Shown here in pieces: positions 3,775 through 24,421 of a stretch of 64,000 nt of DNA. The DNA lies in contig NC_090785.1 of assembly GCF_040054535.1 (NCBI RefSeq), positions 7,127,501-7,191,500 of the forward strand, given 5' to 3'. The DNA comes from Antennarius striatus. Taxonomy: Eukaryota; Chordata; Actinopteri; Lophiiformes; Antennariidae. The position numbers and the translations under genes are program-made. The notes beneath the pieces are model-generated. The model was given only the letters and a program-made list of their open reading frames with translations, was not told the origin of the DNA and did not search any database. Every line of letters begins with the position of its first letter. The stretch's first letter is position 1.

Positions 3775-4800
3775 GATGAGATCCATTGTACACTGTCATT
3801 TGTTAATCCCATAGCAGAGGAACAGGTTAAATCTAGCAATTACCTGGAGTGCCTTCAGCAAATGGAACTCTCCAATTTAAGCTCCCAAATCTCCTCTGCT
3901 AAACCGTCTACCAGTCTGCTGGAAAAAATTCCAACTACCCTTCTAAATGAGGTACCGTTACTAAATAAAGTCATACTCTCGATAATTAACTAGTTTTAGG
4001 TATAGGCTATGTACCACAATCTTTTAAAGTAGCTGCGATCAAGGCCCTCCTTAAGAACCAAACCTAGATGTAACTCTGTTCAGATATTACAGGCCAATCT
4101 CCAACCTTTAATTTCTAGCCAAGATTCTAGAAAACGTATACTGGCCAAACAGCTAAATGACTATTTAACAGAGAATTACTTGTTAGAGGACTTTAAGTCA
4201 AGTTTTAGAACAAATAACTGGTATGGAGTAACGAGCATTGCTCAGAGTTACAAATGACCTTTTAATAGCATCAGATAAAGGTCTTCTATCTGGTTTAGTT
4301 TTATTAGACCTCAGTGCTGCGTTTAACACTGTTGATTATTCTTCTCAGATTAGAAGATGATCAAGTTGGTTTAGATCATATCTGTCTGGCTGATTCAGTT
4401 TGTTTATGTAAATAATAAATCTTCAGAACAAGAAAGTCTTAGCTGTGGAGTACCTCAAAGAGCCGTTCTGGGGCTAATCGGTTTGTATATGTTAGGTAAT
4501 ATTATCAGAAAACATAAGATTCCTTTTCACTGCTATGCAGATGATACCCAGTTATATTTGTCAATTAAAACCAACAATTCTGACCAATTAGTTAGAGACT
4601 TGCTACAGTTACATTAAGTCTTGGATGCTCTACAAATTCTAAACACTGATAAACCTGAAGCTATCATTATTGGTCCTAAACACCTTAGAGATCATATTTT
4701 TAACACTGTAATTCACTTTGATAATATTGCTTTAACCTCTAGTAGCAATGTCATAAGCTGCTATAGGTCTAGACTGCTGAGGGTATTTTCTGTCTCTCCC
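3775..4800 (+). mobile_element. Decayed L2/CR1-like non-LTR retrotransposon, reverse transcriptase region
   Basis: Non-LTR retrotransposons copy their RNA at a nicked genomic target. Fragments in several frames spell conserved reverse transcriptase blocks in order. These are an RPISNL-like motif and KILE..KQLNDY (about 4090-4165), LLDLSAAFNTVD (about 4295-4340), CGVPQ..VLG (about 4445-4480), the catalytic FHCYADDTQLYLS block (about 4525-4565) and IIIGPKHLRD (about 4655-4700). Frameshifts and stops break the frame throughout, so the copy is dead. The motif set fits the L2/CR1-type elements common in fish; the exact family would need a repeat library. Confidence 0.8.
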
Positions 4801-4817
4801 ATTAAAGGGACTTACTT

Positions 4818-4858
4818 GAATGAATGAAATGAATGATTTTCATTCATTTCATTCATTC
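4818..4858. repeat. Perfect 19-bp inverted repeat (3-nt loop)
   Basis: The left arm at 4818-4836 (GAATGAATGAAATGAATGA) and its exact reverse complement at 4840-4858 are separated by TTT. It sits at the end of the LINE remnant and the start of the duplicated block described next. Confidence 0.9.
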
Positions 4859-5280
4859 TGACTGCAACATCCCGCGACACCCGAATTCCAAATTTTACCC
4901 TGACCTACTTGCATAGGTCAAAGATCAAAGCTGGTGCTCTGACCTACTTTCATAGATCAAAGCACTGGCTTTGATCAATGGTCAAAGCACTAGCTTTGAT
5001 CTATGGTCTTACTGAAACTGGCCTTCCCCCCCGTCTTTCTATCTTATCCGGTTCCTGAGTGTACAAAACTTGACCTTGACCTAGTTTTCTCATCGCCTTA
5101 TTTTCATCCCCTTTGCCACCCGGGTAATGTGCTTTTTGTTTCATCTTTCTGTCAGCAACGGTTCCGAAGATATTTCGTGGACTAATGGACGAACAAACGG
5201 ACAGACAGACAAATGGACGGATGAACACATGAACGCTGACAATTACAATATATGGCCGCTTTGAAGCGGGATTTAAGTAA
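4859..5280. repeat. Duplicated non-coding block upstream of array copy 1
   Basis: This roughly 420-bp block recurs at 7962-8402, upstream of array copy 2. Both contain repeated CAAAGCTAGTGC/GCACTAGCTTTGATC direct and inverted motifs, a TTGACCTTGACCTA segment, a GCGAAGATATTTxGTGGAC segment and a run of GGAC/AGAC repeats ending ACAATATAT. No coding potential is seen. It could be an unclassified mobile element or part of the tandem unit. Confidence 0.7.
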
Positions 5281-5299: not shown

Positions 5300-5552
5300 A
5301 CTATGTAAAATAATCCCGCTCAGCTAATCTTGAAACCATGGAAACAAGATAAAAGCCAAAGACGTTCCCATTGTCATGTAGGTGGCCATAAAGAAGTTGT
5401 GCTTTGAAGTGAGAATATAAAGAAGCTGAAACATATACATTTAACATATTGGTTTTGTTGTGCTGTGAGACAGGGTGCACTCCGGGTGCGACGCCAGCAC
5501 AATGCGGAGCCATATGCTGTACAGAAGAACAAACAAAGAGAGTCAGTCCACA
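5300..5552 (+). promoter_or_regulatory. Conserved 5' flank of array copy 1 (candidate promoter)
   Basis: A block repeated before each exon A of the array (also before 8591, 10654 and 17080, and partly before 12893). Shared elements are an ACCATGGAAAC core (5335-5345), a GGTGGCCATAAAGAAGTTGT segment, GAATATAAAGAAGCTGAAAC with a weak TATA-like AATATAAAG, and ATATTGGTTTTGT just before the start codon. Conservation of non-coding sequence next to the start suggests a promoter and 5' UTR, but it may simply reflect recent duplication. Confidence 0.5.
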
Positions 5553-6865
5553 ATGGACGACTTAATTGTTGATGCAATTACACGGACTGAGTTAGGAGAG
5601 ATTGACCCGCAGTTTGATGAATTCCTGCGTTACTTGCTTTCAGAATCACCGTCTGGTGAACCTCCATCATGGTTCCCTGACGAGGACGGGGTGCAAAACC
5701 ACTTGGACCATCCCTATGCTGCTGGTTGTAAGACAGTTTTTTGTCAGATATATAGTGAAAAGTTAAAAAAACATGCTGTGTGGATGTTTAATGATCAATA
5801 ATCCATTTGAAAGTGCTGTTGAGATAGAAACCACCACACTGAACTTTTCAAGACAAGCCTAGTACAACAGATAAGATGGATTGATGGCATTTACAAATCA
5901 ATGTTCATATTATGACTCCTTCAAAATAAAGTCCTTACTAATTGTGAACAAGATAGTTTTTAATAAAAACTATCTTGTTCACAATGTTAAAAAATAGAAG
6001 TTACTCTTTTTTAAATGCGTTGCAGTTTCTGACATTCAAGCTGAAATGGAAACTCCACCAGCTCCGCGGCGGCAGTTTTGTGACTCTGTGGAGACTCCAA
6101 CGGTGAAGGCTTCCACTGGCTCACTCACAAACTGCAGACTCGAAGTCAATCACCTGAGTCACAACCCCTATTCCCGTGCAGACACACGGTGGGAATATCC
6201 CTACTCTGATAAAGGTAAGTCCATTTTTGACAGAGTGAAATGTGATTAATAAACAACAGATGCTATGTGGATGTTTAGTGATCAATAATCTACTATAAAG
6301 TTCTTTTGAGCATTTACCTAAACACGTGGGGAAGAAACCTCACTTAAACTTTTCAGACAAGTCTTGCACAACAGATTTAAAAGATGGATGGAGGGAATTT
6401 ACAAAGCAAAGCTGATATAGTGACTCCTTCAAATTAAAAGTTCTTATCAATTGCTATTTCCTACATATTGCACTGTGGATGATCACAATCATCTTATTGA
6501 CAGTCGGTTATCGGCCTTGTGGGTCAAAGGTCTTCCGGAGCCTATCCCTACTATGGGCAAAAGGCAGGTCACACTCCAAATAAGATGGAAGCTCATCATG
6601 GGACCAACAACTATCTTTTTTTTTTTTTTTTTAAAGGGTGTTTTTGTTTGATTGTTTTGCAGCAACTGAATCTGAAAATGGAACTCAACCAGCTAAGCGG
6701 CAACGTGTTGGTGAACTGATGAAGGACAGGACCTACCTGCACACCTGCAGGGCCTCCCACACAGGCAGAATCCATCCAATTAGGGAACACAGACAACAGT
6801 CTGCCCCTCGTCGTAGTGGTAGAACAAGAAAAAGTCCTATGAGGCCAGAGTGGCTCAGTTGGTAG
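5553..6865 (+). CDS. Tandem-array gene, copy 1: unassigned three-exon nuclear-like protein
   Basis: I do not recognise this family. Proposed exons are A 5553-5727, B 6026-6214 and C 6663-6865, giving 188 aa. Donors are T|GTAAGA and AAAG|GTAAGT, acceptors end in TTGCAG and TTTGCAG, and both introns are phase 1, so the frame is open throughout. Exon A encodes an acidic segment (MDDLIVD start, FDEF, WFPDEDG, HPYAAG end). Exon B carries METPPAPRRQF, CRLEVNHL and HNPYSRADT. Exon C carries PAKRQRV, a basic nuclear-localisation-like motif, and ends RSGRTRKSP. The last residues (EWLSW) and the stop come from an adjoining SINE. There is no signal peptide or membrane segment. The acidic N-terminus with basic C-terminal clusters suggests a nuclear protein; that is inference only. 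The parallel exon structure in five neighbouring copies is the main support that this is a real gene. Confidence 0.65.
5941..5985. repeat. Perfect 22-bp palindromic hairpin in intron 1 of copy 1
   Basis: ATTGTGAACAAGATAGTTTT plus TA (5941-5962) is followed by one base and its exact reverse complement (5964-5985). Sister copies have the single arm only (for example AAAACTATCTTGTTAAT near 11206), so this is a local inverted duplication specific to copy 1. Confidence 0.9.
6505..6612 (+). repeat. Dispersed-repeat remnant in intron 2 of copy 1
   Basis: The segment reading GAGCCTATCCCTACTATGGG, then CAGGTCACACTCC and CTCATCATGGGACC, resembles a very common fish repeat (compare a fresher copy at 43390-43500). 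The same remnant sits in intron 2 at 11755-11825 and 13850-13940 and in part at 9545-9580, so it was present before the array expanded. Confidence 0.6.
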
Positions 6866-7135
6866 AGTGGGCCATCCAATGATTGTAGGATTAGTGATTT
6901 GATTCCCGCTCCACTAGTCCCTGGGCAAGACAATTCCTTACGTGAATGTGCGTGATTGTTCCGGTGGAGGTTGCAAAGGCCATTGGCATGGATTGGCTGC
7001 CATGTTTCCTTCAGTCTGCCCCAGGACAGGTGTCACCATGTATGAATGAGGAGTGAATGAATAGTGGATCCACTGTAAAGCGTCTTTGAGTGTATAGAAA
7101 AGCATATATAAATCTGATCTATTGTTATTATTACC
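6847..7135 (+). repeat. tRNA-derived SINE following exon C of copy 1
   Basis: It starts with an A-box-like GTGGCTCAGTTGGTAGAGTG and a B-box-like region (GATTTGATTCCC). It runs through GGGCAAGACA and GTGGATCCACTGTAAAGCGT to a 3' end TATATAAATCTGATC followed by TTATTATTAC. The first bases form the last codons and stop of the upstream reading frame. Confidence 0.75.
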
Positions 7136-7200
7136 TTGATTACTATAAAATAAAAATACATGAATATGATTTGGTTGTATTCTATTGATTTGAAAATACA

Positions 7201-7464
7201 AAAGAGTTGAATATCTTCTTCACTCTTTGTCCATTCTTTAAAGGGGTCCAATTATTAAAAAAACATTTTCAGGTCTCTGCATACACATTGTGGTCCTCCT
7301 TAACCCTACCAACTCCAAGTATCTAGAAAACAAATGCCTCCTACATCAATAAATATTTGAAATCTTTTGGAATCTTTGGCTTGACAGCATCAAAATGATC
7401 CCTTTTGTCACAGCTCCCGTCTTGTTGTAACAACAGGAGTGATTGACAGAGTGATTGACATATC
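7201..7464. other. Spacer between array copies 1 and 2, no feature seen
   Basis: AT-rich non-coding sequence with no open frame of note and no recognised repeat. Confidence 0.4.
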
Positions 7465-7928
7465 CTGAGCCATATTTGATTGATTGGCATGTCCTTTCCC
7501 CAGACAAGGACATAGTCAGGCTGACGGCAGTGTGTGGTAATGACCTGGCTCAGAGCTACACACTCAAAGTTCCTCACAAGCTGTTGAAGTCAGCTGGCAT
7601 TTGGCTGACTAGTTAGCTCCGCTTCAGTAAGGTTGTGTGTGTGTGTGTGCGTGCGCGCGCGTGTGTGTCTGTCTGTGTGTCTGCATAAGGCGTATCCTCA
7701 GCATCATAGCAAACACATAACCAGTTTCATAGCAGATGAAGACACTACTAAATCAGAACTGTTGTCTGTTTTTGATGAATGAAAGCAGCTTTAGCTCTTT
7801 TAAGTGATCTGAGAACTGTGTGTATCTAAAGCGACTACACCACTCATTAAAAAACAGCGTCAGCTTCCATTTACAGCCTAATAGAAATTCACTGTCACCA
7901 GTTAAGGGTTACGTTGAACTGATCTCAA
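7465..7928 (+). repeat. Left member of a roughly 450-bp inverted repeat pair
   Basis: This block reappears in reverse orientation at 18153-18605. Shared segments include GACCTGGCTCAGAGCTA, TAGTTAGCTCCGCTTCAGT, a GT microsatellite (about 7633-7680), AGCATCATAGCAAACACATA, CCAGTTTCATAGCAGATGA and GGGTTACGTTGAACTGATC. Substitutions show that the copies are not recent. Confidence 0.85.
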
Positions 7929-7961
7929 CCTTGCAAGAAACAAGAACTTAGGCAGTCAGAG

Positions 7962-8402
7962 ACTGCAACATCCCGTCACTTACCCTGGCCTATTTCCAGG
8001 GCAGGACAGGGTACCCTGAAAGTAGCACCTCACAAGTGCATAGATTGGTAGGGTAGGTCAAAGCTATGCACTAGCTTTGACCATAGATCAAAGCTAGTGC
8101 ATATGTAGATCAAAGCTAGTGCATATGTAGATCAAAGCACTAGCTTTGATCTATGGTCTTACTCACACTGGCCTTCCTCGTCTTTATATTTTATCCGGTT
8201 CCTGAGTGTACAAAAGTTGAAATTTGACCTTGACCTAATTTTCCCAAGGTCAAGGTCATCATCTCATTTTCATCCCCTTTGCAGCCCGAGTAATCTGCTT
8301 TTTGTTTCATCTTTCTATCTGCAACAGTTGCGAAGATATTTGGTGGACATACGAAGAGACGGACAAACGAACAATTACAATATATCACTGCTTTGAAGCA
8401 AG
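7962..8402. repeat. Second copy of the duplicated non-coding block
   Basis: Homologous to 4859-5280 (see that entry). It includes a small internal tandem duplication, CAAAGCTAGTGCATATGTAGAT twice at about 8089-8132. Confidence 0.7.
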
Positions 8403-8590
8403 ATGTAATAATCCCACTCAGCTCATCTTGTAACCATGGAAACAAGATGAAAGCTTAACAAGTCACATTGTGACATCATAAAGGTGGCCACAAAGAAGTT
8501 GTACTTTGAAGTTTTGAATATAAAGAAGATGAAACATACTTTCAACATATTGGTTTTGTCCTGGTAACAATCAGAGGGAATCAGTTCACA
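8402..8590 (+). promoter_or_regulatory. Conserved 5' flank of array copy 2 with X-box-like site
   Basis: Homologous to the flank of copy 1. At 8430-8443 it has GTAACCATGGAAAC, which fits the RFX X-box pattern (GTNRCC, spacer, RGYAAC) except for one base in the right half-site. Just before the ATG is CCTGGTAAC. Functional assignment is inference. Confidence 0.45.
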
Positions 8591-9325
8591 ATGGACGACT
8601 TCACTGTTGACATGATTATAAAGATGGAGTTAGGAGAGTTTGATCCCCAATTTGATGAATTCATGCATTACCTGCTTTCAAACGCACCTTCTGCTGAACC
8701 TTTTTCATGGTTCCTTGACGAGGAGGGGGGGCAAAACCACATGGACCATCCCTACGCCGCTGGGTGTAAGACAGTCTTTGTCAGTTATAGAGTGAAATGT
8801 TACAAACAACATTCTGTGGGGATGTTTAATGATCAATAATCCGTTTTAAAGTGCTGTTGAGATTTACCTTAACACAGGAGGAAGAAACCCCCTTAATTAA
8901 CCTTTCAAGACAAGTCTTGTAAAAACACATAAGAAAGATGACATTATGCCTCCTTCAAAATAAAAGTCCGTACTAATTGCTATTTCCTACATGTTGAAGA
9001 AAAACTCTTTTTTATAATTATAAAACATAAAGGCTGTTTTTCTTTTTTTTTATGTGTTGCAGTGTTTGACTCTCAAGATGAAATGGAAACGCCACCGGTT
9101 AGGCTACAGTTTTGTGACTCTGCAGAGACTCCAGCGGTGAAGACTTCCACTGACTCACTCACAAACTGCAGAATTGAAGTCAATCCCCTGGATCACAACC
9201 CCTATTCTCATGCAGATACACGGCGGGAGTGTCCCTACTCTGGTAAAGGTAAGTCCATTTTTGTTACAGTGAAATGTCATTACAGTAATAAAAAACATGC
9301 TGTGTGGTTGTTTAGTGATCAATAA
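8591..9325 (+). pseudogene. Tandem-array gene, copy 2: exons A and B intact, exon C lost
   Basis: Exon A 8591-8765 (175 nt, donor GGGT|GTAAGA) and exon B 9063-9248 (186 nt, acceptor TTGCAG, donor AAAG|GTAAGT) are open and in phase. They encode the same modules as copy 1: MDDFTVDMIIKMELGEFDPQ at the start and METPPVRLQF and HNPYSHADTRREC in B. No exon C follows; where it is expected the sequence changes into a LINE fragment at about 9570. If intron 2 is retained the frame runs to a TAA at 9325, giving a shortened protein. Because exon B is bounded by phase-1 introns, splicing to a downstream exon C (for example at 12196) would also stay in frame. It is probably a truncated copy. Confidence 0.6.
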
Positions 9326-9569
9326 TCTATAAAGTGCTGTTGACCATTTACCTTAACACATGGGGAAGAAACCTCACTTAAACTTTTAAGACAAGTCTAG
9401 TACAACCGATTAAAAAATGGATAGAGGGAATTTACAAAGGTAAGACGATATTGTGACTCGTTCAAATTAAAAAGTCCTTATCAATTGCTATTTCCTACAT
9501 ATTTTATTGTTGATGATCACAATCGTCTCATTGACAGCCGATTGTTGGCCTTGTGGTTCACATGTCTGC

Positions 9570-9990
9570 TGGAGAGCTACAAATTTTCATATAACAGGCA
9601 GAGCAAAGGTGGAGATGGGGTTGCAATATATATTGATCTGAATTTAAATTTCACGATGGTAGGGGCTAGGACACGAGTGCCAACCAGCCTTCTTGAATGT
9701 CTCACAATACAGATTTGTTGGGAAACAAAACAAGATATCAGTGAGGTCTAGGTTCTAGTATAAACTCAGTGATAAGCTCAGTGAATGGACAAAAGCCCAA
9801 TAAAAATATCTTCATTTGCTGGGATTACAATATTAATCTACTAAAACTCAATTTTGTTTTAGAATTTGTAAAATATTCAATATGTCTGTACTGAATATTT
9901 TACTAATTCAATCCATAGGTTGAGTCTCTTTCAAATAATCACTAGATCTGTGAGTAGCAGCCTTCAGGAGCTCCTAGTAAATTTACACAT
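9570..9990 (+). repeat. LINE endonuclease-domain fragment replacing exon C of copy 2
   Basis: The frame at about 9592-9750 reads NRQSKGGDGVAIYIDLNLNF and later LLECLTIQIC, a pattern known from endonuclease domains of fish LINEs. Further on, about 9806-9845, a broken frame spells a GDYNINLL-like motif. The frame is interrupted, so the element is dead. Confidence 0.65.
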
Positions 9991-10196
9991 TTGACAAAAA
10001 AAAATTTTTTTAATCAAATAACTATCTCCTGCTTTTGGCCTATCTGGATAGTTCCCTTGATTTCGCCAACTTTTGATAAATCCTTGTAACAATCTGTTAT
10101 TTGTAATTATTGACGATTACTCAGAAAAAAAAAATATTGAATGCATTTTTTAAGAATTAAATTTTTAGAGTTCATAAAATATCGTAAGACTGCTCA

Positions 10197-10450
10197 AAGC
10201 CAGAGGCATGGTGATACATTGGTTATCACTGTTGCCACACACCAAGAAGGTTCTGGGCTCAATTCTTTCTGTGCTGAGTTCTGTATGATTTCTGTGTGGG
10301 TTCTCTCCCGCTCTCACTTCCAAAAACATGCAATTTAGGTGAACTAATCACCCCAAAGTGACCGGAGGTGTGAGTCCAGGCTGTACTCCGCCTCTAACCC
10401 TTAGCCAGTGTGGATAGGCTCCAGCAGACACGTGAAGTGAAGACACGAAT
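10197..10450 (+). repeat. tRNA-related SINE-like repeat
   Basis: It has the same family features as 3190-3510: head GGTGATACATTGGTTATCAC, then GTTGCCACACACCAAGAAGG, the core (TGTGTGGGTTCTCTC, AAAACATGCAATTTAGGTGA) and the tail GGATAGGCTCCAGCAGAC. It lies between array copies 2 and 3. Confidence 0.7.
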
Positions 10451-10653
10451 ACAATCATCTGAGAGGCTAGAAGCTGTACTTCCCCTCTAGCCTCTCAGCT
10501 TTTAACCATCGAAAAAAGGATAACAGCTAAAGATGTTGCCATTGTTACGTCATAAAGGTGACCATAAAAGAAGTTGTGCTTTGATGTTAGAATATAAAGA
10601 AGCTGAAACATACATTCAACAAATAGGTTTTGTCGTGGTAACAATCAAAGGCA

Positions 10654-11978
10654 ATGGATGAATTAGCTGTTGACATGATTATAAAGATGGAGTTAGGAGA
10701 GTTTGATCCCCGATTTGATGAATTCATGCATTACCTGCTTTCAGACTCACCCTCCACTAAACTTCCTTCATGGTTCCCGGACGAGAAGGGGGCACAAATC
10801 CACTTGGACCATTCCTATGCTGTTGGGTGTAAGACAGTTTTCTTCAGTTATATAGTGAAATGTTACAAACACCGCGGTGCACTGGCATCGCGCCCGGAGT
10901 TTCCCCACCTCACGCCCTAAGACAAGCAAGGATAGGCTCCAGCTCCCCACGACCTGCACAAGCAGATGAAGTGGGTTGAGAAAATGAGTGAATGTTACAA
11001 ACAACATGTTTAATGATCAATAATCCATTTTAAAGTTCTTTTGAGATTTACATTAACTCATGAGGTAGAAACCACTTCAATGAACCTTTCAAGTCTTGTA
11101 CAACAGGTAAAAAAATGGATTGATGGAATTCACAAATCAAAGTTGATATTATGGCTCCTTCAAAATAAAAGTCCATACTAATTGCTATTTCCTACATGTT
11201 GAAGAAAAACTATCTTGTTAATTATAATAATTTTAAAATGAGTCTGTTTTTCTTTTTTTTTATGTGTTGCAGTGTTTGACTCTGAAGATGAAATGGAAAC
11301 TCCACCAGTTAGGCTACAGTTTTGTGACTCTGCGGAGACTCCAGCGGTGAAGGCTTCCACTGGCTCACTCACAAACTGCAGACTCGAAGTCAATCACCTG
11401 GATCACAACCCCTATTCCCGTGCAGACACACAGCGGGAGTGTCCCTACTCTGATAAAGGTAAGTCCATTTTTGCCAGAGTGAAATGTGATTAATAAAAAA
11501 CAGATGCTGTGTGGTTGTTTAGTGATCAATAATCTACTATAAAGTGCTGTCAAGCATTTACCTTAACACATGGGGAAGAAACACCTCATTTAAACTTTTA
11601 AGACAAGTCTTGTACAGCAGATCAAAAAGATGGATGGAGGGAATTTACAGAGCAAAGCTGATATAGTGTGTCCTTCAAATTAAATATCCTTATCAATTGC
11701 TATTTCCTACATATTGTATTGTGGATTACCACAATCGTCTCATCGACAGTCGGTTATCGGCCTTACCGGTCACAGGTTTGCTGAAGCCTTTCCTCATAAC
11801 TATGGGCGAAAGGCAGGTCACACCCAGGGCGGCAGTGGCTCAGTTGGTAGAGTGGGTCGTCCAATGATAGAGGATTGGCGGTTCAATTCCCTTTCCCGCC
11901 CAGCCACCTCGGACTGTGAGCTGATAATGGAAGGTGGCCACTGGCCATGCCCTCTCCCCACCACATGCCCAAAGGCCC

Positions 11979-12014
<36 letters not shown>

Positions 12015-12485
12015 AGTCCTGTACACACTATATACTGTATATGCATGTGATTAACTGTGTGCTAGAGTGTCAATAATTTCCCTACGAGGATTACAGTATT
12101 AAAGTATATTACATATACATATACAGGTACGACGGCAGCTCTTTTAAAAAACCCCAAAACAAAACAAACGGTGTTCTTTTTGGACTGTTTTGCAGCATCT
12201 GAAGCTGAGAATGGAACTCAACCAACAAAGAGGCAACGTGTTGCTGACCTGATGAAAGACAGGACCTATATGCCCACCTGCAGGGCCTCCCACACAGGCA
12301 GAATCCATCAAATTATGGACCACACACAACAGACGGCCCCTCGTCATAGCAGTCGAAGAAGAAGAAGACCTTTGAGGCTGGAGTGGCTCAGTGGGGAAGG
12401 TGAGTCGTCCAATGATTGTAGGATTAGTGGTTTAATTCCCACTCCATTAGTCATTTGTCATTGTGTCCTTTGGCAACACATTTGA
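10654..12485 (+). CDS. Tandem-array gene, copy 3: unassigned three-exon protein with SINE-derived C-terminus
   Basis: Exons are A 10654-10828, B 11273-11458 and C 12196-12485, predicted 216 aa; both introns are phase 1 with GT-AG ends. Exon A gives MDELAVDMIIKMELGEFDPR, FDEFMHYLLSDS and WFPDEKG; exon B gives EDEMETPPVRLQF, CRLEVNHL and HNPYSRADTQREC; exon C gives SEAENGTQPTKRQRV, RASHTGRIH and RSSRRRRRP. The frame then runs about 40 codons into a SINE before its stop, so the protein is longer than its sisters. Intron 1 carries a SINE fragment and intron 2 carries a second SINE plus a GT microsatellite, none of which breaks the splice sites. The upstream flank (10500-10653) has a degraded X-box-like site and a TTACGTCA CRE-like octamer. 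The family is unknown; the open frame despite heavy repeat insertion suggests it may be expressed. Confidence 0.65.
10871..10992 (+). repeat. SINE 3' fragment inserted in intron 1 of copy 3, with target duplication
   Basis: The inserted piece (GCGGTGCACTGGC, GATAGGCTCCAGCTCCCC, then AAAATGAGTGAA) is flanked by a 10-bp direct repeat, TGTTACAAAC, at 10861-10870 and 10993-11002. The empty site is visible in copies 2 and 4, which read TGTTACAAACAACATT without interruption. Confidence 0.85.
11831..11985 (+). repeat. tRNA-derived SINE in intron 2 of copy 3
   Basis: GTGGCTCAGTTGGTAGAGTG head with B-box-like GCGGTTCAATTCCC. It is truncated and runs into a GT microsatellite. Confidence 0.7.
11981..12011. 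repeat. (GT)n microsatellite
   Basis: Short GT run within intron 2 of array copy 3. Confidence 0.9.
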
Positions 12486-12530
12486 CCTTCCTTATGTGAA
12501 TGTGCATGATTATTCTGGAGGTGGTCGGAT
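12375..12530 (+). repeat. tRNA-derived SINE following exon C of copy 3
   Basis: GGAGTGGCTCAGTGGGGAAG head, degraded B-box (GGTTTAATTCCC) and GTGTCCTTTGGCAACACA. It is at the same position relative to exon C as in copies 1 and 4, so the insertion predates the array. It is read in frame as the end of copy 3. Confidence 0.7.
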
Positions 12531-12654
12531 AGGTAATATTATAGCAAAGAATAACCTATCTGTAATTTACCTCATCAAAGCTTATATATAAACTTTAACA
12601 GCATCAGGGAATATCTACATACATTCTAGCAGATATTTAACAGGGGAATGAATT

Positions 12655-12790
12655 TTGAAATGGAGAGCTACAAATTCATATATAACAACAGGCAGAGTAA
12701 AAGTGGAGATGGGGTTGTGATATACAGTATATTAATCTGAATTTAAATGTCAAGATGGTGGAGGCTATGACGCCACCAAAATGTATAAGC
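12655..12790 (+). repeat. LINE endonuclease-domain fragment
   Basis: Decayed copy of the segment at 9570-9990 (ATATAACAACAGGCAGAGTA, then TGGAGATGGGGTTGTGATAT, then AATCTGAATTTAAATGTCAA). It lies directly upstream of array copy 4. Confidence 0.6.
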
Positions 12791-12892
12791 TGAAACATAC
12801 TGTATATGTACATTCACCATATTGATTTTGTATATTGGTTTGGTTTGTATATTGGTTTTGTCCTGGTAACAATTAGAGAAAATCAGTTCATA

Positions 12893-14187
12893 ATGGACAA
12901 CTTCTTGTTCACATGATTATAAAGATGGAATTAGGAGAGTTTGACCCCACAATTCGATTAATTCATGCATTACCTGCTTTCAGACACACCCTCTGCTGAA
13001 CCTCTTTCATGGTTCCCTGACGAGGAGGGGGCGCAAAATCACATGGACCATCCCTATGCTGCTTGTTGTAAGACAGTTTTTGTCAGATATATAGTAAAAT
13101 GTTACAAACAACATTCTGTGGGGATGTTTAATGATCAATAATCCGTTTTAAAGTGCTGTTGAGATTTACCTTAACACATGGGGAAGAAACCACCCCATTT
13201 AACCTTTCAAGACAAGTCTTGTTCAATACATAAGAGAGATGGACTGATGGAATTTACAAATCAAAGTTCATGTTATGAGTCCTTCAAAATAAAAGTCCTT
13301 ACTATTTTTTCTACATGTTGAAGAAAAACTGTCATGTTAACAATTAAAAAAATGAATGCTGTTTTTTTTGTTTTTTTTTTTAAATGTGTTGTGACTCTAA
13401 AGATGAAATAGAAACCCCACAGTTGTGTGACTCTGTGGAGATTCCAGTGGTGAAGGCTTCCATTGGCTCACTCACAAACTGCAGATTCGAAGCCACTTGC
13501 CTGGGTCACAACCCCTACTCCTGTGCAGATACACAGTGGGAGTGTGCCTACCCTAATAAAGGTAAGTCCATTTTTGCCAGAGTAAAATGTGATTAATAAA
13601 AAACAGACGCTGTGTGGTTGTTTAGTGATCAATAATCTACTATAAAGTGCTGTTGTACGTTTAAACATGGGGAAGAAACCTGACTTAAACAAGACAAGTC
13701 TTGTACAACAGATTAAAAAGATGGATGGAGGGAATTTACAAACCAAAGCTTATATTTTGACGCCTTCAAATTAAAAGTCCTTATCAATTGCTATTTCCTA
13801 CATATTGTATTATGGATGATCACAATCGTCTCATCGACAGCCAGTTATTTGCCTTGTGGGTCACTGCTGCAGCCTATCCCTGCTATGGGCAAAAGGCAGG
13901 CCACACCACAGATAAGACAACACCTTATCATGGGGCCAAGAACTATCTTATTTAAATAAAACAAAATAAAAATAAAACAAAGGGTGTTCTTGTTTGATTG
14001 TTTTTCAGCATCTGAAGCTGACAATACAACTCTACCAGCTAAGAGGCAACGTGTTGGTGAACTGATGAAGGACAGGACCCACCTGCCCACCTGCAGGGTC
14101 TCCCACACAGGCAGCATCCAGCCAATTATGGACCACACACAACAGACAGCCCCTCGTCGTAGTGGTAGAGCAAGAAGAAGACCTTAA
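12893..14187 (+). pseudogene. Tandem-array gene, copy 4: pseudogene
   Basis: Exon A is at 12893-13067. A one-base deletion after the fifth codon shifts the frame to an early TGA, and a later one-base insertion restores the length. Exon B ends at 13561 with a good donor (AAAG|GTAAGT), but its start has lost the TTGCAG acceptor and it carries a 12-base in-frame deletion and an altered PQLCDSVE segment. Exon C at 14009-14187 is intact with acceptor TTTTTCAG. It encodes SEADNTTLPAKRQRV, RVSHTGSIQ and RSGRARRRP and stops at TAA before the SINE, which probably represents the ancestral C-terminus (59 residues in this exon). The copy cannot make the full protein. Confidence 0.75.
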
Positions 14188-14191
14188 GGGC

Positions 14192-14325
14192 TGGAAGTAG
14201 CTCAATGGGGAGAGAGGGCAGCTGTCACCATGTATGAATAAGGAGTAATGGATCCACTGTAAAGTGTCTTTGAGTCTCTATTAAAGCGCTATATAAATCT
14301 GATCAATTATTATTATTACCTTGAT
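14192..14325 (+). repeat. SINE remnant following exon C of copy 4
   Basis: The head is degraded (GAAGTAGCTCAATGGGGAG) and joined to the 3' part (GTCACCATGTATGAATAAGG, TGGATCCACTGTAAAGTGTC, GCTATATAAATCTGATC). The middle is deleted compared with the copy at 6847. Confidence 0.65.
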
Positions 14326-14689
14326 TACTATAAAATAAAACTACATGAATGTGATTTGGTTGTATTCTATTTTTTCAAAAATACAAATGAGTTGAATATC
14401 CTCTTCGCTCTTAATTCATTCTCTACATCAGACAATTGCCATTATTTTGCGATCATAACAATCCATGTGAAGTTGACTCAGGAAAAACAAGGACATAAAT
14501 CCTATTCCTGAAACCTGCGATGATCTACAGTATGTCTGCCATATGTTTTGCCTTATTCATATGTGGCTGGCCTTGTCTTATTTATTGGTTTTCATTTCAT
14601 GTGCATTTCTGGTTTTCTGTTACTGTCATATTCTGGAGTCATTGCACCTGGTCTTGTTATCCTTGACTGTCTCGTTTGACCCGTCGGGG

Positions 14690-15530
14690 GACAGGTGCAG
14701 TGTGGATTGGGTGGCAGTCGTCAGCATGGGGCTCGACGACCCAATCCCCAGACAAAGAGTCTAGCTCTAGGGAAATGGAATGTCACCTCGCTGGGGGGGG
14801 GGGGAGCCAGAGCTTGTGAGGGAGGTTGAGAAGTTCCAACTAGATATAGTCGGGCTCACCTCCACCTACAGCTTGGGCTCTAGAACCCAAACTCTTGAGA
14901 GGGGCTGGACTCTCCACTTTTCTGGTGTTGCCCAAGGTGAGAGGCAGCGGGCTGGTGTATGTTTGCTTATAGCCCCACAGCTCAGCCGTCATATGTTGGA
15001 TTTCACCCAGTTGAATGAGAGGGTTGCATCCTTGCGCCTTCGGGTTGGGATAGGTGAATCACTGTTGTTTCGACTGAGGATATTGTCAGGCGGTGGAAAG
15101 TATACCTCAAGGATCTCCTCAATCCTGCTACCATGTCTTACACGGAAGAAGCAGAGCTTGAGGTACCAGAGGTGGATGAGTCCATCACCCAAGCTGAAGT
15201 CACTGATGTGGTTGCCAAAATCCTTTGCTGAGGGCTATCTGGTCCCTGTATGACCGAAAGGACAAGATCCCGGATACAAGTGGCTGAAATGAGTTTTCTC
15301 CATAGTGACTGGGCGCAGCCTTAGAGATAGGGGGAGGAGCTCTCCTGCTGGGAGAAGACCTCAAGGAAGACCAAAGACACGCTGGAGGGACTATGTCTCT
15401 CGGCTGGCCTGAGGATGCCTTGGGATCCCCCCGGTGGAACTGGAACAGGTGTCTGGGGAGAGGGAAGCATGGGCATCCCTCCTGAAACTGTTGCCCCTGC
15501 CACCCGGCTCCGGATAAGCAGTTGAAGAAG
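14690..15530 (+). mobile_element. RTE-like non-LTR retrotransposon, internally deleted
   Basis: The frame at 14780-15070 reads EPELVREVEKFQLDIVGLTS, ERGWTLHFSGVAQGERQRAG and LLIAPQLSRHMLDF, the apurinic-type endonuclease domain of a fish LINE that cuts the genomic target. After a large deletion that removes the reverse transcriptase core, the 3' end follows: a CGGTGGAAAGTATACCTCAA segment (about 15092), then GGATGCCTTGGGATCCCCCC (about 15413) and a terminal CCGGCTCCGGATAAGC (about 15505). The 3' tail is a degraded GATG-type repeat. The clade (RTE/Rex3-like) is my best guess from the 3' end. Confidence 0.7.
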
Positions 15531-15585
15531 GATGGAATTAATGGATTGATGGAATTAATGGACTGATGGAATTAATGGATTGGTG
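15528..15585. repeat. Short tandem repeat, three 18-mer-like units
   Basis: GATGGAATTAATGGATT/CT is repeated about three times at the 3' tail of the LINE. Confidence 0.85.
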
Positions 15586-16134
15586 TTTATCTAATGGGTG
15601 TCTAGAACTCCCCATTGTTCACTCCCACGTATTCAGCTGGTAATTTATTCTACCTGAACCTAATTTAGCAAGTGTCCTCCTGCTCTGGGTATTTAAGCAA
15701 CTTTACTGCAATGTCGACCCATCAGTGTTGAGCAGCATTTGTTTGTGCAGAGAGCCGTGTATGCCATTCGCTATGGTTACTTCCTCGACCGTTTCCGTAT
15801 GACCATGAGACTGTCTAGCCTTGTTTTGTATTTTTCTGGAGACTGACCTTTGCCTGTTCTGACCACAATTTTTGTCTTTCGCTGCCCTGTGTATGACCAT
15901 GGCCCTGTCTCTTTGAATTACGTATTACGTTTTTTGCCTGCCTCCTATGTACCGTCCTGACCGACCCCTGCCTGTCCAGTCACTAGGAACTTTGGATATC
16001 CCTCTGGCGCTGCAATCTCTGTGGTTTTTTGCTGTGAAACCAAACAAATAAAGGCCTTTGATATTTTGGCATTGACCCGTGACTGGTTCCTTCTGAGGCC
16101 GTTTCAAAACCTGGATTAGTACTAAAAGTTGAAT

Positions 16135-16480
16135 GAATTTTGAAATGGAAAGCCTCAAATATATTCAGTATATACAGTACCAACAGGCACAGCGATGGTG
16201 AGGATGAGGTTGCAATATATATTGACCTGAATTTAAATTTCAAGGTAGTAGAGGCTATGACACAAGTAGCGACTAGTCTTCTTGACTGTCTTACAATACA
16301 GATTTTTATATAAACAGTGAATGGACAAAAGCCCAATAAAAATATCTTCATTTGATGGAATTACAATATTTACCTACTAAATCTCAACAATCAGAGAAGT
16401 ATTGAATATTTTCAATGCATAGTTTGAGTCTTTTTCCTACAATCACTTGAGAGAGATGCTGCCTTCAGGACCACCAAGGA
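16135..16480 (+). repeat. LINE endonuclease-domain fragment
   Basis: Decayed homologue of 9570-9990, sharing GAATGGACAAAAGCCCAATA and TTGCAATATATATTGACCTG. It lies upstream of array copy 5. Confidence 0.6.
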
Positions 16481-16675
16481 AATTTCCACATCTGACAAAG
16501 CTCATAAAATAACTGTCTTATTATGTTACGTTATATTACGGTTTTTTCCTGGGTTGTGCCAGCTTTTGATAAATCCTTGTAACAGTCTGTTATTTGCAAT
16601 TATTGGTAATTAAATATATTTTTTAAGAATTTAATATTTAGAATTCATTAAATATATGACTGCTCAAAACAAGTG

Positions 16676-16850
16676 GAATGGTGTCGCAGCAGGTATCGCT
16701 GTTGCCTCACAGCAAGAAGGTTCCGGGTTCGATTCTATCTGTATGAATTTCTGTATGATTTCTGCGTGGGTTTTCTGCAGCTTTTCAGCTCTTACCTCTA
16801 AAAACATGCAAATTAGGTGACCTAATCATCCCAAAGTCAAATGCTCAAAA
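16676..16850 (+). repeat. tRNA-related SINE-like repeat
   Basis: GGTGTCGCAGCAGGTATCGC, GTTGCCTCACAGCAAGAAGG, B-box-like GGGTTCGATTCT and AAAACATGCAAATTAGGTGA. The tail is missing. Confidence 0.75.
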
Positions 16851-16904
16851 ATACATAAGACAACTACATGAAGTTAAACCCTATCTAAAATAATCCCACT
16901 CAAC

Positions 16905-17079
16905 TCATCTTGTGACCATGGAAACAAGATAAAAGCTAAAGACGATGCCATTGTTAAGTGATGGTCTGATAATTGACCATGAAGAAAGTTGTGCTTTGAA
17001 GTTAGCTTATAAAAAAAGCTGAAACACATAGATTCAACATATTGGTTTTATCCAAACAATCAGAGAGAATCAGTTCAAA
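16905..17079 (+). promoter_or_regulatory. Conserved 5' flank of array copy 5 with X-box-like site
   Basis: GTGACCATGGAAAC at 16912-16925 keeps the left X-box half-site exactly and the right half-site with one mismatch. The rest of the flank matches the other copies up to the ATG. Confidence 0.45.
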
Positions 17080-20000
17080 ATGGATGACTTAATTTCTGAC
17101 ACAATTATAAATATGGAGTTAGGAGAATTTGACCCCCAATTTGATGAATTCATGCATTACGTGCTTTCAGACTCCGCTGAACCTCCCTCATGGTTCCGTG
17201 ACGAGGAGGGGACGCAAAACCAGATGAGGCATCCCTATGCTGCTGGCTGTAAGACAATTTTTGTCAGTTAGTCTGTTGTGATTAAAAAACAGGCTGTGTG
17301 GATGTTTAATGATCAATAATTCTGTTGAGAATTTACCTTAACACACGGGGAAGTGAAAAACTTTTAAGGCAAGTCTTGCACAACAGAAAAAAGATCGATT
17401 GATGGAATTTACAAATCAAAGTTGATACTATGACTCCTTTTTACAATAAAAGTCCTTACTAACTGCTGTTTCCTGTATATGGAAGAAAAGCTATCTTGCT
17501 AAAAATAATGACAAAAAATAAAGGCTGTTCTCTCTTTTAAAAATATGTTCCAGCGTCTGACTCTCAAGCTGAAATGGAAGCTCCACTGGCTAAAAGGCAG
17601 CGGTTTTGTGACCCCCTGGAGACTCCAGGGGTGAAGGCGGGTTTCCTCCATTCTCTTCCTCATGGCATACTATTGAAGGACTGCAGAGTCCACTTGAATC
17701 AACTGGGTCACAACCCCTACTCCCGTGCAGACACACGGCAGGAGTGTAACTACTGTGATAGAGGTAAAACCGTTTTTGCAGATGCTGTGTGAATGTTTAG
17801 TGATCAAGATATTAATGACTGCTTTCTCAGTCAGCCGAATGTGACTCCGTAGCTGCACTACATGGGCTAATCCTACTGAGACCACCGTGAACAAATTCAC
17901 GGTGAATTTGTGGATTGAAACCCACAGTGTTTGCAAATGGGACAAAAATCAGTGGAGAAGACAATAGATGATCACAGATGACCTATTATCTATTTATTAT
18001 GATTTCTCTTAGTTCTTCACTTTAAATTTTCCTTCTTCTCTGTGTCTGTGTGTGTGCGTGCGTGTGTGTGTGTGTGTGTGTGTGTGTCTCACAAGGCTGG
18101 GATTGAGTGATATATACACCTCTTGATTTCTGCCTGGATAATGCTGGGTTTAGATCAGTTCAACGTAACCCTTGGTTTGTGAAAGTGAACTTCTATTAGG
18201 CTGTAACTAAAGGCTGAGGATCTTTTTTAATGAGTGGTGTAGTCGCTTTGGATACATGCAGCTCTCATATTACTTAGAAGAGCTAAAGCTGCTTTCATTC
18301 ATCAGAAACCAGACGACAGTTCTGATTTAGTAGCATCCTCATCTGCTATGAAACTGGTTATGTGTTTGCTATGATGCTGAGAATATGCCTTATGCAGGGA
18401 CATGAACACACACACACACACACATACCTGACTGAAGCGGAGCTAACTAGTTAGCCAAATGCTAGCTGACTTCAACAGCTAGTGAGGGACTTTCAGTGTA
18501 TAGCTCTGAGCCAGGTCATTTCCACACACTGCTACCGTAGCCTGAACAGTTCCACCTCAGGGATGATCACACCCTTATCCAGATGGACAATCAAATATGA
18601 CTCTTGTTAAAAATAATGATAAAAAATTAAAGACCCTTCTCTTTTAAAAAATGTGTTGCAGTATCTGACTCTCAAGCTGAAATGGAAACTCCACAAGGTA
18701 AGACACAGCGGTTTTGTGACCCAATGGAGACTCCAGCGGTGAAGGTGGGCTTCCTCTATTCTCTTCCTCCTGGCGTACTATTGAAGAATTACAGAGTCCA
18801 CCTCAATCCCCTGGGTTACAACCCCTACTCCTATGCAGATATACGGCAGTAGTGTCCCTACTCTGATAAAAGTAAGACCGTTTTTGTCAGAGTGAAAAAC
18901 CCGTTGCTGGTTGGATGGTTAGTGATCAGTACCATTTACCTTAACACCTGGGAAAGAATCTACCTCATTTACAATTTTAACACAAGTCTTGTACAACAGA
19001 TTAGGAAGATAGATGGTGTCATGTCTCTGGACAATTAGTGTCTTGTTTCAGTTTTTCTAACATACCATGTCATTTCAGATTCATTGGTAATCAGCTCATT
19101 CCCTGCATCTACCTTCCCTTCGCTCACCTGCAGGCTGCAGCCACTCACCTAATCAGCCGGAACTCTTCATATGCTCTGCTCAGCCCTCTGCCAGATTGTT
19201 AGTATCCATCCTGACTTTCCAAACTTTATATCCTGACTGACACTTGATCCTGATTTGATCCTGCCTGTTTCCGGACCCTACATGTTGCCAACCCCTCGTC
19301 TGATCTGTCTGGTTTTTGGCCACGTTCAGATTTTTTTTTTTAAATTTAATTTAATTTTATATACTGGTTTGATCCCCGAAGGGAAATTAAGAGAGCACAC
19401 TCTAGCTACTGATTGATGGCAGATGGCAGGCATATCAGATTTCCTTCCATATCTGATTTTTAGAGATGACTGTTCACGCTGTTTAGCAAGTGTACAATTT
19501 CTTTTTCCGTGTTTTACCACTCCGTAATGCGCGACACTCTTCCTTCTGGCACCTTGCTCTCGCGTTGTGAATATGACATCACAGTCCGCTTGGAGTGTTG
19601 GGAGCTGTTCAGACTGCAGACGCCTCTATCCCTATCCAACACGAAACTATCTCCCGAATGTGGTTTCAATCCATCACACAAAAATCAGATTTCATGTGGT
19701 ATGAGACTGTTCAGTCTACAAACAAGATATGCGACATCAATCTGGATGGGCTAAAAATCAGATATAGGCGACTAATCTGAACAAGGCCTTTGATTGCTTA
19801 GTGCCTGACCCTGTGAGATAATCGGATTCTGCAAGTTCCCCTGCCGTCTGTCTGCTTTGTTTGCTTGTTGGACTGAATTCCCGGGACCAGAGCCCTGCCA
19901 GTCTAATTAAACCCTTTTTGAGACTCTTGACCCATCTGCCTGCTTGTCTGTCATGCTTTTGGGTTCTCCATCAGTTTTGTTCAAGTCGTGATAGATGGAA

Positions 20001-20327
20001 GGAATTTACAAAGGAAAGCTCATATTGTAACTCCTTCAAATTAAAAGTCCTTATCAATTGCCATTTCCTACATATTGTAAAAACAAAAATCAAAGGGTGT
20101 TCTTCTTTGATTGTTTTGCAGAATCTGAAGCTGAGAATGGAACTCAACCAGCTAAGAGGCAACGTGTTTGTGACCAGAAGAAAGACAGGACCCACCTCAT
20201 TTGCCTCACCCACAGGGCCTCCCACACAGGCAGAATCCAGCCAATTAGAGACCACAGTCAACAAACAGTCCTTCGTCGTAGTTGTGGAAGAAGAACTTTG
20301 AGGCAACAGATGGTAGATGCCATGTGA
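17080..20327 (+). CDS. Tandem-array gene, copy 5: unassigned three-exon protein, exon C displaced by insertions
   Basis: Exon A 17080-17248 (169 nt, two codons shorter than its sisters), exon B 17554-17763 (210 nt) and exon C 20122-20327 give 194 aa if spliced together; all junctions are phase 1. Exon A reads MDDLISDTIINMELGEFDPQ and WFRDEEG. Exon B keeps the basic motif AKRQRF lost from copies 1-3 and has an 8-codon insert (GFLHSLPHG-like). Exon C reads PAKRQRV and RASHTGRIQ and ends in LINE-tail sequence (RQQMVDAM, stop). Between B and C lie an inverted-repeat block, an orphan exon B with a stop, and an LTR with a nested DNA element, so intron 2 would be about 2.4 kb. Whether exon C belongs to this gene or to a broken sixth copy is unclear; the phases allow either. 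Confidence 0.5.
18153..18605 (-). repeat. Right member of the roughly 450-bp inverted repeat pair
   Basis: Reverse-oriented homologue of 7465-7928. It ends immediately before the intron sequence that leads into the orphan exon B at 18662. Confidence 0.85.
18662..18871 (+). pseudogene. Orphan exon B of a sixth array copy
   Basis: 210 nt, the same length as exon B of copy 5 and sharing its 8-codon insert (GFLYSLPPG-like). Acceptor TTGCAG and donor AAAA|GTAAGA are present, but an in-frame TAG follows the ADIRQ codons. No matching exon A lies upstream; that position is occupied by the inverted repeat. It would end translation if included. Confidence 0.75.
19017..19993 (+). mobile_element. Solo LTR (Ty3/gypsy-type) with a nested DNA element
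   Basis: The element starts TGTCATGTCT and ends near CGTGATA, flanked by the 5-bp direct repeat GATGG (19012-19016 and 19994-19998), as expected for a gypsy-type insertion. Outside the duplication the two flanks join into the same intron sequence seen in other array copies. It has the C/T-rich GCCTG-type composition of fish LTRs and TTAAACCCTTTTTGAGACTC (about 19907). No internal gag/pol region is present, so it is a solo LTR. Confidence 0.65.
19323..19790. mobile_element. Short non-autonomous DNA element nested in the LTR
   Basis: The insert has inverted ends sharing GTTCAGATT (left, 19324-19332) and AATCTGAAC (right), with GGCC on both outer sides. It contains no transposase frame. The family is not identified. 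Confidence 0.5.
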
Positions 20328-20425
20328 GAGAAGAGGATGCAGAAGACAGGGTTAGATGGAGGCAATTAATTCGCTGTGGTGACCCCTGAAGGGAAAGGCC
20401 GAAAGCAGAAGAGACACTATGGCAT
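20300..20425 (+). repeat. LINE 3'-tail fragment
   Basis: GGATGCAGAAGACAGGGTTA, then ATTCGCTGTGGTGACCCCTG and AAAGGCCGAAAGCAGAAGAG, is a familiar 3' end of fish LINEs. Its start supplies the last codons and stop of exon C at 20122-20327. Confidence 0.6.
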
Positions 20426-21711: not shown

Positions 21712-24421
21712 ATGGATAATACGCCTTGCCTTCGTGTATCTCAATGTCATACACAGCTGTTAAGGTAATAGGGTATTTACGTAAGTGCAAGTTAGAAAGT
21801 ACTGTAGTTAGCATTGGAGCTTTGTACTGCAAAATAAGGTTTGATGGACGAGTTTCATGTGTTCCATGAGATGAAGTGCGTTTGAATTCTAATGTGTGAT
21901 TTAAACAGGAAAACTCTACAATCCAAAGGCCTACTTGACCCAACTTTGTGTTTACTCAAAGACTCAGACGAGACGATCCTCCTACCACTCTTAGCATCTT
22001 GTTTGTCAGGACTTGATCTGCAGTCTCTCAAAGCAATTGTAGCTCCGGAGAGCATTTGTGAGATCGTTTGGAATCAGGTAATTAAAGATGGGTTTCACTT
22101 GAACACACGATTAGCATAACGAAACACCACACTGCTGCTTGACACGTGTTTGGGATTTTTTTTCCAGTCTCCCCTGCCGTCTAAAAAGTCTAAAAGATGG
22201 ACGCTTGGTAATAAATTACAACAAAACCTCCAGGAGCTGGTGGAATCTCATGGTGAGGGATGGACAGAGGAGCTGAAGGGAGATCTCCCTCACAGCTTCC
22301 ACAGGCATGGAGATGTAATCCTGCTGGGTGACAGCTGTTTCTCCATGCCACTATGGGGGAAAATGGGTATGTTAACTTTGTCAGTCTCACACTTTTATCG
22401 ACTAATGTACTTCTATGTGTAGAAGATAATCATGACACTTAATAATAACTAATTTTTTTTAGATGCCCAACAGTTGTGGAGTGTGGTGGCAAAAGTCTTT
22501 GGTGCGAAACGCCTGGCAAAGATGAGTCAAATATCGAGAAATGGATTTAGGTCTCCTGCTGTGACTATGCTGTATGGAGAGAACAGCTGGGTCAGACATG
22601 TGGACAATGGGATCGTGTAAGTCTCAGTCAGTCAAGTTAAGTAACGTCTGTTCTCTTGATGTTCTTGTTGAATAGGTATTGAGAATGAACAAATACTGTA
22701 CTTTGGAGTTTGAGTAAAGCATATTTGATTTTAGGCTAAATTACCAGGGATCAGAGCATTTTGTCAGACTCGTGACTATCCTGCTTTTCACCCATATGTC
22801 AGTTGGGTTTGGATCCCGTCCCACCTAAATTCAGTACTTTTTTATTTCAGGTATGAGTTTGATGTTACGAAATGCATGTTCTCAGCTGGAAATATAACAG
22901 AAAAGCTACGGGTGGCTGGATTTGACTGCAGAGGGGAGACTGTTGTGGATTTGTATGCAGGTGGGATGACTTTTTTAACATGTGACAGGTTTCGACATTG
23001 ATAAGTATACAGTAGAATCGTTTTTGTTTTGTTTTTTTACTGGTTCCACCAAAGGAGAACCAGAAAAACAAATCCTATATCATAATATCCACAAAACTCT
23101 CCATCATATCAGATTTTCATACTCTCCTCGTGGGTTATTAAGTGTAGTTTATGTAATGAAATGAATGTTTCAGTGTAAATAAAACTATTGTACATCTTGG
23201 TTTAGGTATTGGTTACTTCACGCTTCCATACCTGGTACATGCACAAGCTGGTCATGTTCACGCCTGTGAGTGGAACCCTGATGCGACTGAAGCTTTACAG
23301 AAAAACCTTGTGGTAAACGGGGTGTCTGACCGCTGCACTGTTCACCAAGGAGACAACCGAAAAGTAATTCCACACTGCTGACATGATATTAGCTCTGTTT
23401 TAACTCAATAATTCCACTGAAAGTTAGACCATTCGTGCCATAAATTGTGAACCAAAGCAAATTGTGAGCCAAAGTGTTCCTGTGCTATCTGCTATGAATC
23501 AAAAGAAACAGATAAATATGTACTATATATAAGTTAATATTTCACTATTTAAATGTTGGAATTCCGGGAGAAGTACAATTTATTTTGAACATTGATCAGC
23601 TGTATCGAGTAATACATCAATGTAAAACAGAAATTCAAATATCTAGGAATAGCTTATATTTATTTTTGAGGTTGAGGTCACACATGTGTTATCATCCTGT
23701 GGATATTCTTTGACATTTGTGTGTGACTTTAGACATCAAATATATTTTAAATACATCATAGGGTTCTTATCTCTGTGAAAATAATCTTGATCGCTTTTAG
23801 TTTATTAACTTTTAATCTATGGTTATGAACAGATTTTTAGTGCATATGTTGGATTTCAGACATATATGAATATCTTAAGAATAAGAAAATCTTTTGCCAT
23901 TGCTTTTAACGTGACAGACTGACTGGACAAACTCAACATAAAAAGTCATATCGGCATGTGGTATAGCAATGATACTGGGATGCACCAGAAGAAAAGGTCT
24001 TGCCTCATTTGGATAATTTAGTAAATATTCAACTTTTTTCCAGCTTCAGCTGTGTGACATCGCTGACCGAGTGAACTTGGGTCTCATACCGCGCTCTGAG
24101 GACGGTTGGCCCGTCGCCTGTCGACTTCTGAGGAAAGCAACTGGTGGTATTTTGCACATTCACCAGAACGTCACTTCTCCACTGCCTGACACAACAGCCG
24201 TTCCAGCAAACGTTGATGCCACTGGGAGAGTTTCCAGGAAGACGGCGGACAGAGAGGTGTGGCGACTGTGGGCTGATGACACAGCACGCTGCATCGCCTC
24301 TCTTCTAAAGGACACAACTGGTGCAGTGTGGATCACAAGCATCCAGCACATCCAGCATGTGAAGTCATATGCACCCCATGTTCACCATATTGTGCTGGAC
24401 CTGGACTGCAGACCGTCCTGA
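21712..24421 (+). CDS. trmt12: tRNA wybutosine-synthesizing protein 2 homologue (TYW2/TRMT12)
   Basis: TYW2 transfers the 3-amino-3-carboxypropyl group of S-adenosylmethionine to the tricyclic base at position 37 of tRNA-Phe, a middle step of wybutosine synthesis that guards the reading frame. Seven exons, all GT-AG: 21712-21764, 21909-22077, 22168-22366, 22463-22616, 22851-22960, 23206-23363 and 24044-24421. They total 1221 nt, 406 aa (human about 448). The SAM-binding block DLYAGIGYFTLPYLVHA is at about residues 225-241. It is followed by HACEWNPDA, GDNRK and the NLGLIPRSEDGWP segment, and the protein ends KSYAPHVHHIVLDLDC. NGIVYEFDVTKCMFSAGNIT precedes the fold as in other family members. 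The N-terminal exon is short and chosen because LRVSQCHTQLL aligns in style and phase with the family start. It is flanked by the array on the left and sytl4 on the right. Confidence 0.93.

Follow-up and report, generated by a model that had tools for sequence, protein, structure and literature searches.

The window, i.e., the whole 64 kb stretch of DNA analysed here (contig C10:7127501-7191500), contains five copies of a small gene arranged head to tail and in direct orientation within the ZDHHC9-TRMT12 interval, as determined by both repeat analysis and tblastn (Table 1). When the protein of copy 1 was compared with the whole genome by tblastn, the search space being 548 Mb, 15 of the 22 matches listed were located in the array. 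The N-terminus of ZDHHC9 lies on the minus strand before the array (E 8.3e-27 to 8hf3), and the N-terminal domain of TYW2 (TRMT12) follows it at 22150-22422, with a match (E 5e-5) that is below the cut-off of Pfam itself. Past this match there are HYR, tetraspanin, and Spot_14 domains, which presumably represent srpx, tspan, and mid1ip1. Tandem families confined to one lineage are in themselves common. The array that an earlier note on this DNA had described between zdhhc9 and trmt12 is borne out by the repeats and the tblastn matches.

Table 1. Features of the array, in positions of the window.
Feature	Position	Strand	Remarks
TATA box, copy 1	5416..5421	+	at -137
Copy 1, intact	5553..6868	+	exons 5553-5727, 6026-6214, 6663-6865 + stop; 188 aa
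Intronic element GATGTTTANTGATCAATAAT	5783..5802	+	first of nine in the window
Further GATGTTTANTGATCAATAAT elements	starts 6270, 8821, 9307, 11005, 11514, 13123, 13617, 17301		
Copy 2	8591..9248	+	open exons 8591-8765, 9063-9248 (120 aa)
Copy 3, intact	10654..12488	+	exons 10654-10828, 11273-11458, 12196-12485 + stop; 216 aa
Copy 4, broken	12893..14190	+	exon 1 12893-13067; exon 3 14009-14190, open
Copy 5	17080..20327	+	exons 17080-17248, 17554-17763, 20122-20327 (stop included); 194 aa
Exon 2 duplicate within copy 5	18662..18871	+	repeat family D18 + tblastn; one in-frame TAG

Copies 1, 3, and 5 have three exons with open frames, and all their introns are in phase 1; the splice coordinates that the earlier note had given are correct. 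Copy 5 is intact if its second exon 2 is skipped. It was this exon that had been read as an orphan and had brought the count to “five to six copies”, of which five stand, given that the D18 repeat and the tblastn matches assign the supposed sixth to copy 5. The damage reported for this exon and for copies 2 and 4 was also found. Exons 1 and 2 of copy 2 are open and have good splice sites, and no exon 3 of this copy is among the tblastn matches, while copy 4 has four in-frame stops and two 1-base indels in exon 1, and has lost the AG of its exon-2 acceptor. Copies 1 and 3 read beyond the position at which copy 4 and the members on two other chromosomes (C19 and C6) end.

These two further members are both open. 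The C19 gene (9.7708-9.7719 Mb) has three exons and encodes 185 aa, and the C6 gene (21.6144-21.6159 Mb) has four exons and encodes 219 aa, or 184 aa minus the extra exon. The usual donor of exon 1 has been lost in the C19 gene, which needs the adjacent GTCAGT, with phase 1 retained, so that an open frame and phase-1 splicing are found in five genes, i.e., copies 1, 3, and 5 and the members on C19 and C6. Identity to copy 1 falls from 72% in copy 3 and 64% in copy 5 to 47% in the C19 gene and 38% in the C6 gene. A second C19 copy lies approximately 9.6 kb away, of which only exon 3 was found, carrying a TGA. The loci with good E-values in the genome thus number three, these counts being lower bounds, and the matches on C17 (E 0.055) and C14 (E 0.31) were taken as chance. 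An open frame neighbouring the C19 gene was duplicated along with it (L009:2056-3261 and L010:1902-2651, both on the minus strand) and resembles, by eye, the linker region of a zinc-finger protein from fish, and a 261-aa open frame near the same gene (L009:7645-8427, minus strand) is similar, also by eye, to a retrotransposon integrase.

The molecular structure of the genes retains the traces of internal duplication. Introns 1 and 2 are mutually homologous (65-80% in blastn pieces, best E 1e-48), and the end of exon 1 together with intron 1 matches the end of exon 2 together with intron 2, for example, between copies 1 and 4 (E 1.7e-34). Over the intron and the first 50-odd bases, exon 2 also matches exon 3 (copy 3 vs copy 5, E 1e-17). 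Given these blastn homologies, the gene is considered to have grown by the copying of an exon and its flanking intron, and C6 and copy 5 show further events of this type, with exon 2 of C6 and its extra exon being 55% identical over 29 residues (E 9e-5).

At the level of the whole unit, homology between chromosomes extends, in blastn, from approximately 620 bases before the ATG to shortly past the stop, and its upstream limit, judged by eye, is a gradual fade rather than a sharp stop. Copies 1 and 3 differ by 10% in exon 2 and by 22% in exon 1, which suggests gene conversion. The array may grow via unequal crossing over, and each gene via the copying of an exon plus the intron beside it.

The introns share a 20-base element, GATGTTTANTGATCAATAAT, with nine matches in the window at up to three mismatches, where 0.04 would be expected, and it is the best-conserved 20-base stretch of the 13 aligned introns (0.91 vs a mean of 0.62). 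At up to two mismatches, it is present in 14 of the 16 introns, and 12 of these 14 elements are located 53-59 bases from the donor, one of them in the third intron of C6, which is 134 bases long; the final two introns of copy 5, which lack it, have four mismatches each. The exact form occurs seven times in the genome, always within this gene family, and the reversed control pattern has zero genomic matches. By eye, we take the element to be a forkhead-like TGTTTA joined to an ONECUT-like ATCAATAA. If the family is expressed, this family-specific element offers a direct way into the study of how the genes are regulated or spliced. The element, the C19 and C6 members, the internal exon duplication, and the actual position of the supposed orphan exon all go beyond what the earlier note had contained.

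The divergence of exons and introns was compared using strict gap costs, under which shuffled sequence diverges by 40-43%, given that lenient costs proved unusable, with shuffled sequence reaching approximately 25% mismatch, no worse than the real pairs. Between C19 and C6, introns 1 and 2 differ by 15 and 22%, and exons 1-3 by 25, 30, and 21%. CpG decay was considered as a cause of the fast divergence of the exons. When CpG contexts are left out, the exons differ by 20, 27, and 19% vs 14 and 22% for the introns, so exon 3 is then no faster than intron 2. When the C6 gene is set against the array copies, the divergence is 26-35% in the exons, compared with 24-28% in intron 1 and 23-31% in intron 2, and the exon-intron gaps are smaller when C19 is compared with the array. 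Within the array the order is reversed, and copies 3 and 5 differ by 15-21% in the exons and by 21 and 42% in the introns. Between chromosomes, then, the exons are no slower than the introns, and no claim is made that they are faster throughout. The accelerated exons of snake venom PLA2 and other toxins are likewise cases of duplicates with exon divergence equal to or greater than that of the introns, in the part of the account available here (PMC2711939). Those toxins are secreted, unlike the proteins proposed here, and the fish genes differ further in having a dN/dS of about 1, not clearly above it, and in the reversal of the exon-intron order within the array.

The substitution rates alone look neutral. 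Nei-Gojobori dN/dS ranges from 0.50 to 1.14 in 15 pairs, with dS of 0.19-0.57, and omega is 1.05 under a codon model fitted to six copies, which is no better than 1 (lnL -2504.76 vs -2504.83). Separate omegas for four regions fit better than a single one (lnL -2491.45 vs -2504.76), with values of 0.81 for residues 1-45, 2.45 for the remainder of exon 1, 1.13 for exon 2, and 0.92 for exon 3. Only the segment at 2.45 differs from 1 (p 3.5e-5), and it is short, gapped, and hard to align; in none of the four regions is omega significantly below 1 (p 0.22 for residues 1-45). The site models are weak, with p 0.026 for M8 vs M8a and p 0.07 for M2a vs M1a.

The reading frames, on the other hand, are not neutral, and the evidence supports their retention by selection. 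Neutral simulation of the six copies along the same tree produced a mean of 17.3 stops, or 9.6 with the branches halved, and none of the 300 runs in either branch setting was free of stops, in simulations that used one start sequence and one topology, though gene conversion is likely. Between C19 and C6, all six of the exon indels keep the frame, vs four of the 13 in the introns (p 0.011), in a count without two terminal gaps, one in exon 3 and one where intron 2 was cut. For other pairs, the aligner broke up some exon gaps into parts (such as 7+14 or 4+4) with totals that are a multiple of three. The net charge of exon 1 is -8 to -13 in all six copies, and a mean charge that low was reached in none of 200 neutral stop-free runs. 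Residues 14-45 have 10 invariant columns vs 4.8 expected (p 0.010), although over the whole of exon 1 the 12 invariant columns are within the neutral expectation (p 0.14), as are the charge of exon 3 (+8 to +15 in five copies) and its eight invariant columns. It has therefore been shown that the frames, splice phases, and acidic exon 1 are kept by selection while most amino acids change at an approximately neutral rate. The earlier note had taken a dN/dS near 1 as one half of the case against its reading, and the value of 1.05 is indeed near 1, but as a guide it is misleading here, since selection acts against stops and frame changes. The family is an example in which dN/dS near 1 would call open genes dead, while the stop, indel, and charge tests disagree.

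The genes of the array have the appearance of functional, so far unstudied genes, not of junk or of a transposon. As the earlier note had suspected, they belong to no known family, in the sense that searches of Pfam and PDB yielded no credible relative, the profile search of PDB giving no matches. As for the second concern of the note, that the frames might be pieces of a transposon polyprotein, no transposon, viral, or bacterial relative was found in Pfam, IMG/VR (none of 67 candidate stretches), or GTDB (none of 19). As these collections do not cover other fishes, “orphan” means only that no relative is present there, and it is quite possible that annotations elsewhere list these genes as uncharacterised. 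The matches to Viral_coat (E 0.21, copy 3), SOCS (E 0.003, copy 5 only), Spb1_C (E 0.08-0.34, two members), and Rz1 (E 0.87, one member) were taken as chance, being below the curated cut-off or unshared; PDB matches at E 1 or worse were rejected, and the BH3-like and LxCxE-like motifs that were sought by eye were dropped. In the literature, as far as the sources available extend, no paper on this gene family was found, and zdhhc9 and trmt12 co-occur in one paper.

The explanation preferred here, held tentatively and with somewhat less than even confidence, is that of a selected tandem and dispersed family that encodes small, mostly disordered nuclear proteins acting as transcriptional or chromatin co-regulators, possibly in the germline. 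Exon 1, with its conserved acidity and an aromatic core (F/Y..F..Y/F.L) followed by PSWF and acidic residues, is the part under the clearest constraint, and may form an activation-type arm which grips a co-activator. In p53-type activation domains, an acidic arm carries spaced aromatic and leucine residues, and exon 1 is predicted to be alike (F..F..YLL, then WF beside acidic residues), whereas the fish proteins have no DNA-binding domain and no homology. The AlphaFold model of exon 1, based on a four-row alignment, places helices at residues 3-15 and 19-29 with low confidence (mean pLDDT 59.5). The KRQR/KRKR-type stretches, from which a nuclear location is predicted, would serve as nuclear signals, and the basic tail may hold nucleic acid or chromatin. 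The role of a fast-evolving transcriptional or chromatin co-regulator, possibly in the germline, is the least certain step of this scheme. It is also possible, though doubtful, that what selection maintains in this undescribed fish family is the frame, the set of exon modules, an acidic first arm, and the 20-base intronic element, and hardly the amino-acid sequence, with the internal exons added as an exon plus an element-bearing intron, so that each module would come with a splice or regulatory signal of its own. If the family is expressed, it has several paralogues in which to ask what a small, fast-changing, nuclear-type protein is selected for.

The upstream regions provide evidence both for and against this scheme, the TATA boxes in register counting for it and the lack of a strict X-box against it. 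A TATA word is found in all seven, vs 2.6 expected, and it is in register in copies 2, 3, and 5 (-72, -61, and -72) and in the C19 gene (within -61 to -72); that of copy 1 lies farther away because of an insert, that of C6 is at -92, and the broken copy 4 has only one far upstream. A CRE-like 8-mer occurs in three of the seven regions vs 0.16 expected, an X-box-like word in two under a loosened pattern and in none of the seven under the strict one, and an ISRE pattern in one vs 0.4 expected, and as the copies are related by descent, none of these counts are independent. RFX2 and CREM both regulate spermiogenesis, with gene sets that are largely separate in mouse in the sections of the source at hand, so an X-box and a CRE-like word together are no spermatid signature (PMC4498915).

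The lean toward the germline rests, given this separation, on fast evolution and on analogy with the SPANX sperm proteins of mammals, and it weakly suggests such a role. The SPANX proteins have basic stretches similar to nuclear signals, as in the fish family. They are likewise small, tandem, and fast-evolving, with copies that arise via duplication, although the likeness drawn here is one of traits, and SPANX genes have two exons vs the three or four seen here (PMC1831492). According to the available part of the same source, SPANX is known to be expressed in spermatids, while the fish family is known here from its genes alone, and SPANX-N is acrosomal, so that SPANX itself is not uniformly nuclear (PMC1831492).

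Other explanations have to account for the same pattern of open frames, changing residues, and conserved introns. The copies may encode a fast-evolving nuclear factor of innate immunity which diversifies in an arms race with viruses or parasites, as the tandem arrangement, the rapid change of the protein, the segment with an omega of 2.45, and the M8 test would suggest. This is unlikely, however, given that the segment in question is short and poorly alignable, M2a is no better supported than M1a at p 0.07, no known immune domain was matched, and the ISRE is found in a single upstream region. More improbable still is that these are dying duplicates, formerly useful and now neutral, which are open by chance. 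Decay would be compatible with the omega of 1.05 and with the damage seen in copies 2 and 4, in the additional exon 2 of copy 5, and in the incomplete copy on C19, but it fails to account for the absence of the expected stops, the frame-keeping exon indels, the retained acidity of exon 1, and the existence of five open genes over three chromosomes.

The product that matters might also be intronic, as RNA or DNA, while the exons are merely carried along, since between chromosomes the introns diverge no more than the exons, and the 20-base element is retained in most introns in a form that, when exact, is restricted to the family. Selection on frame and charge requires a protein, though, many indels have accumulated in the introns outside the element, and there is no Rfam match in the window, which makes this reading very improbable. 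The least probable is a mobile or viral gene, either domesticated or still live, as suggested by copies on three chromosomes and by repeat debris close by. Such a gene would have to be reconciled with only three loci at good E-values (as a lower bound), with units that include introns and an upstream region, with the lack of any Pfam match, and with IMG/VR and GTDB candidates of which none are related. 

Finally, the repetitive surroundings of the array have features of their own. A broken reading similar to a reverse transcriptase was seen by eye at 3900-4830, and is probably LINE debris. A 22-base tRNA-like word occurs at 6850-6871, beside the stop of copy 1, and at 11835-11856, in intron 2 of copy 3; by eye, a tRNA-derived SINE was suspected next to the stop of each of copies 1 and 3, a label that is not established, the word being found twice in the window and ARAGORN having detected no tRNA gene. 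A repeat of approximately 390 bases is present in inverted orientation (7527-7935 vs 18142-18532; three pairs, 86-93% complementary), with one arm past copy 1 and the other inside copy 5, between exon 2 and its duplicate. Short tandem repeats with a palindrome-like word, CAAAGC..GCTTTG, are located upstream of copies 1 and 2, at 4957-5008 and 8084-8138.
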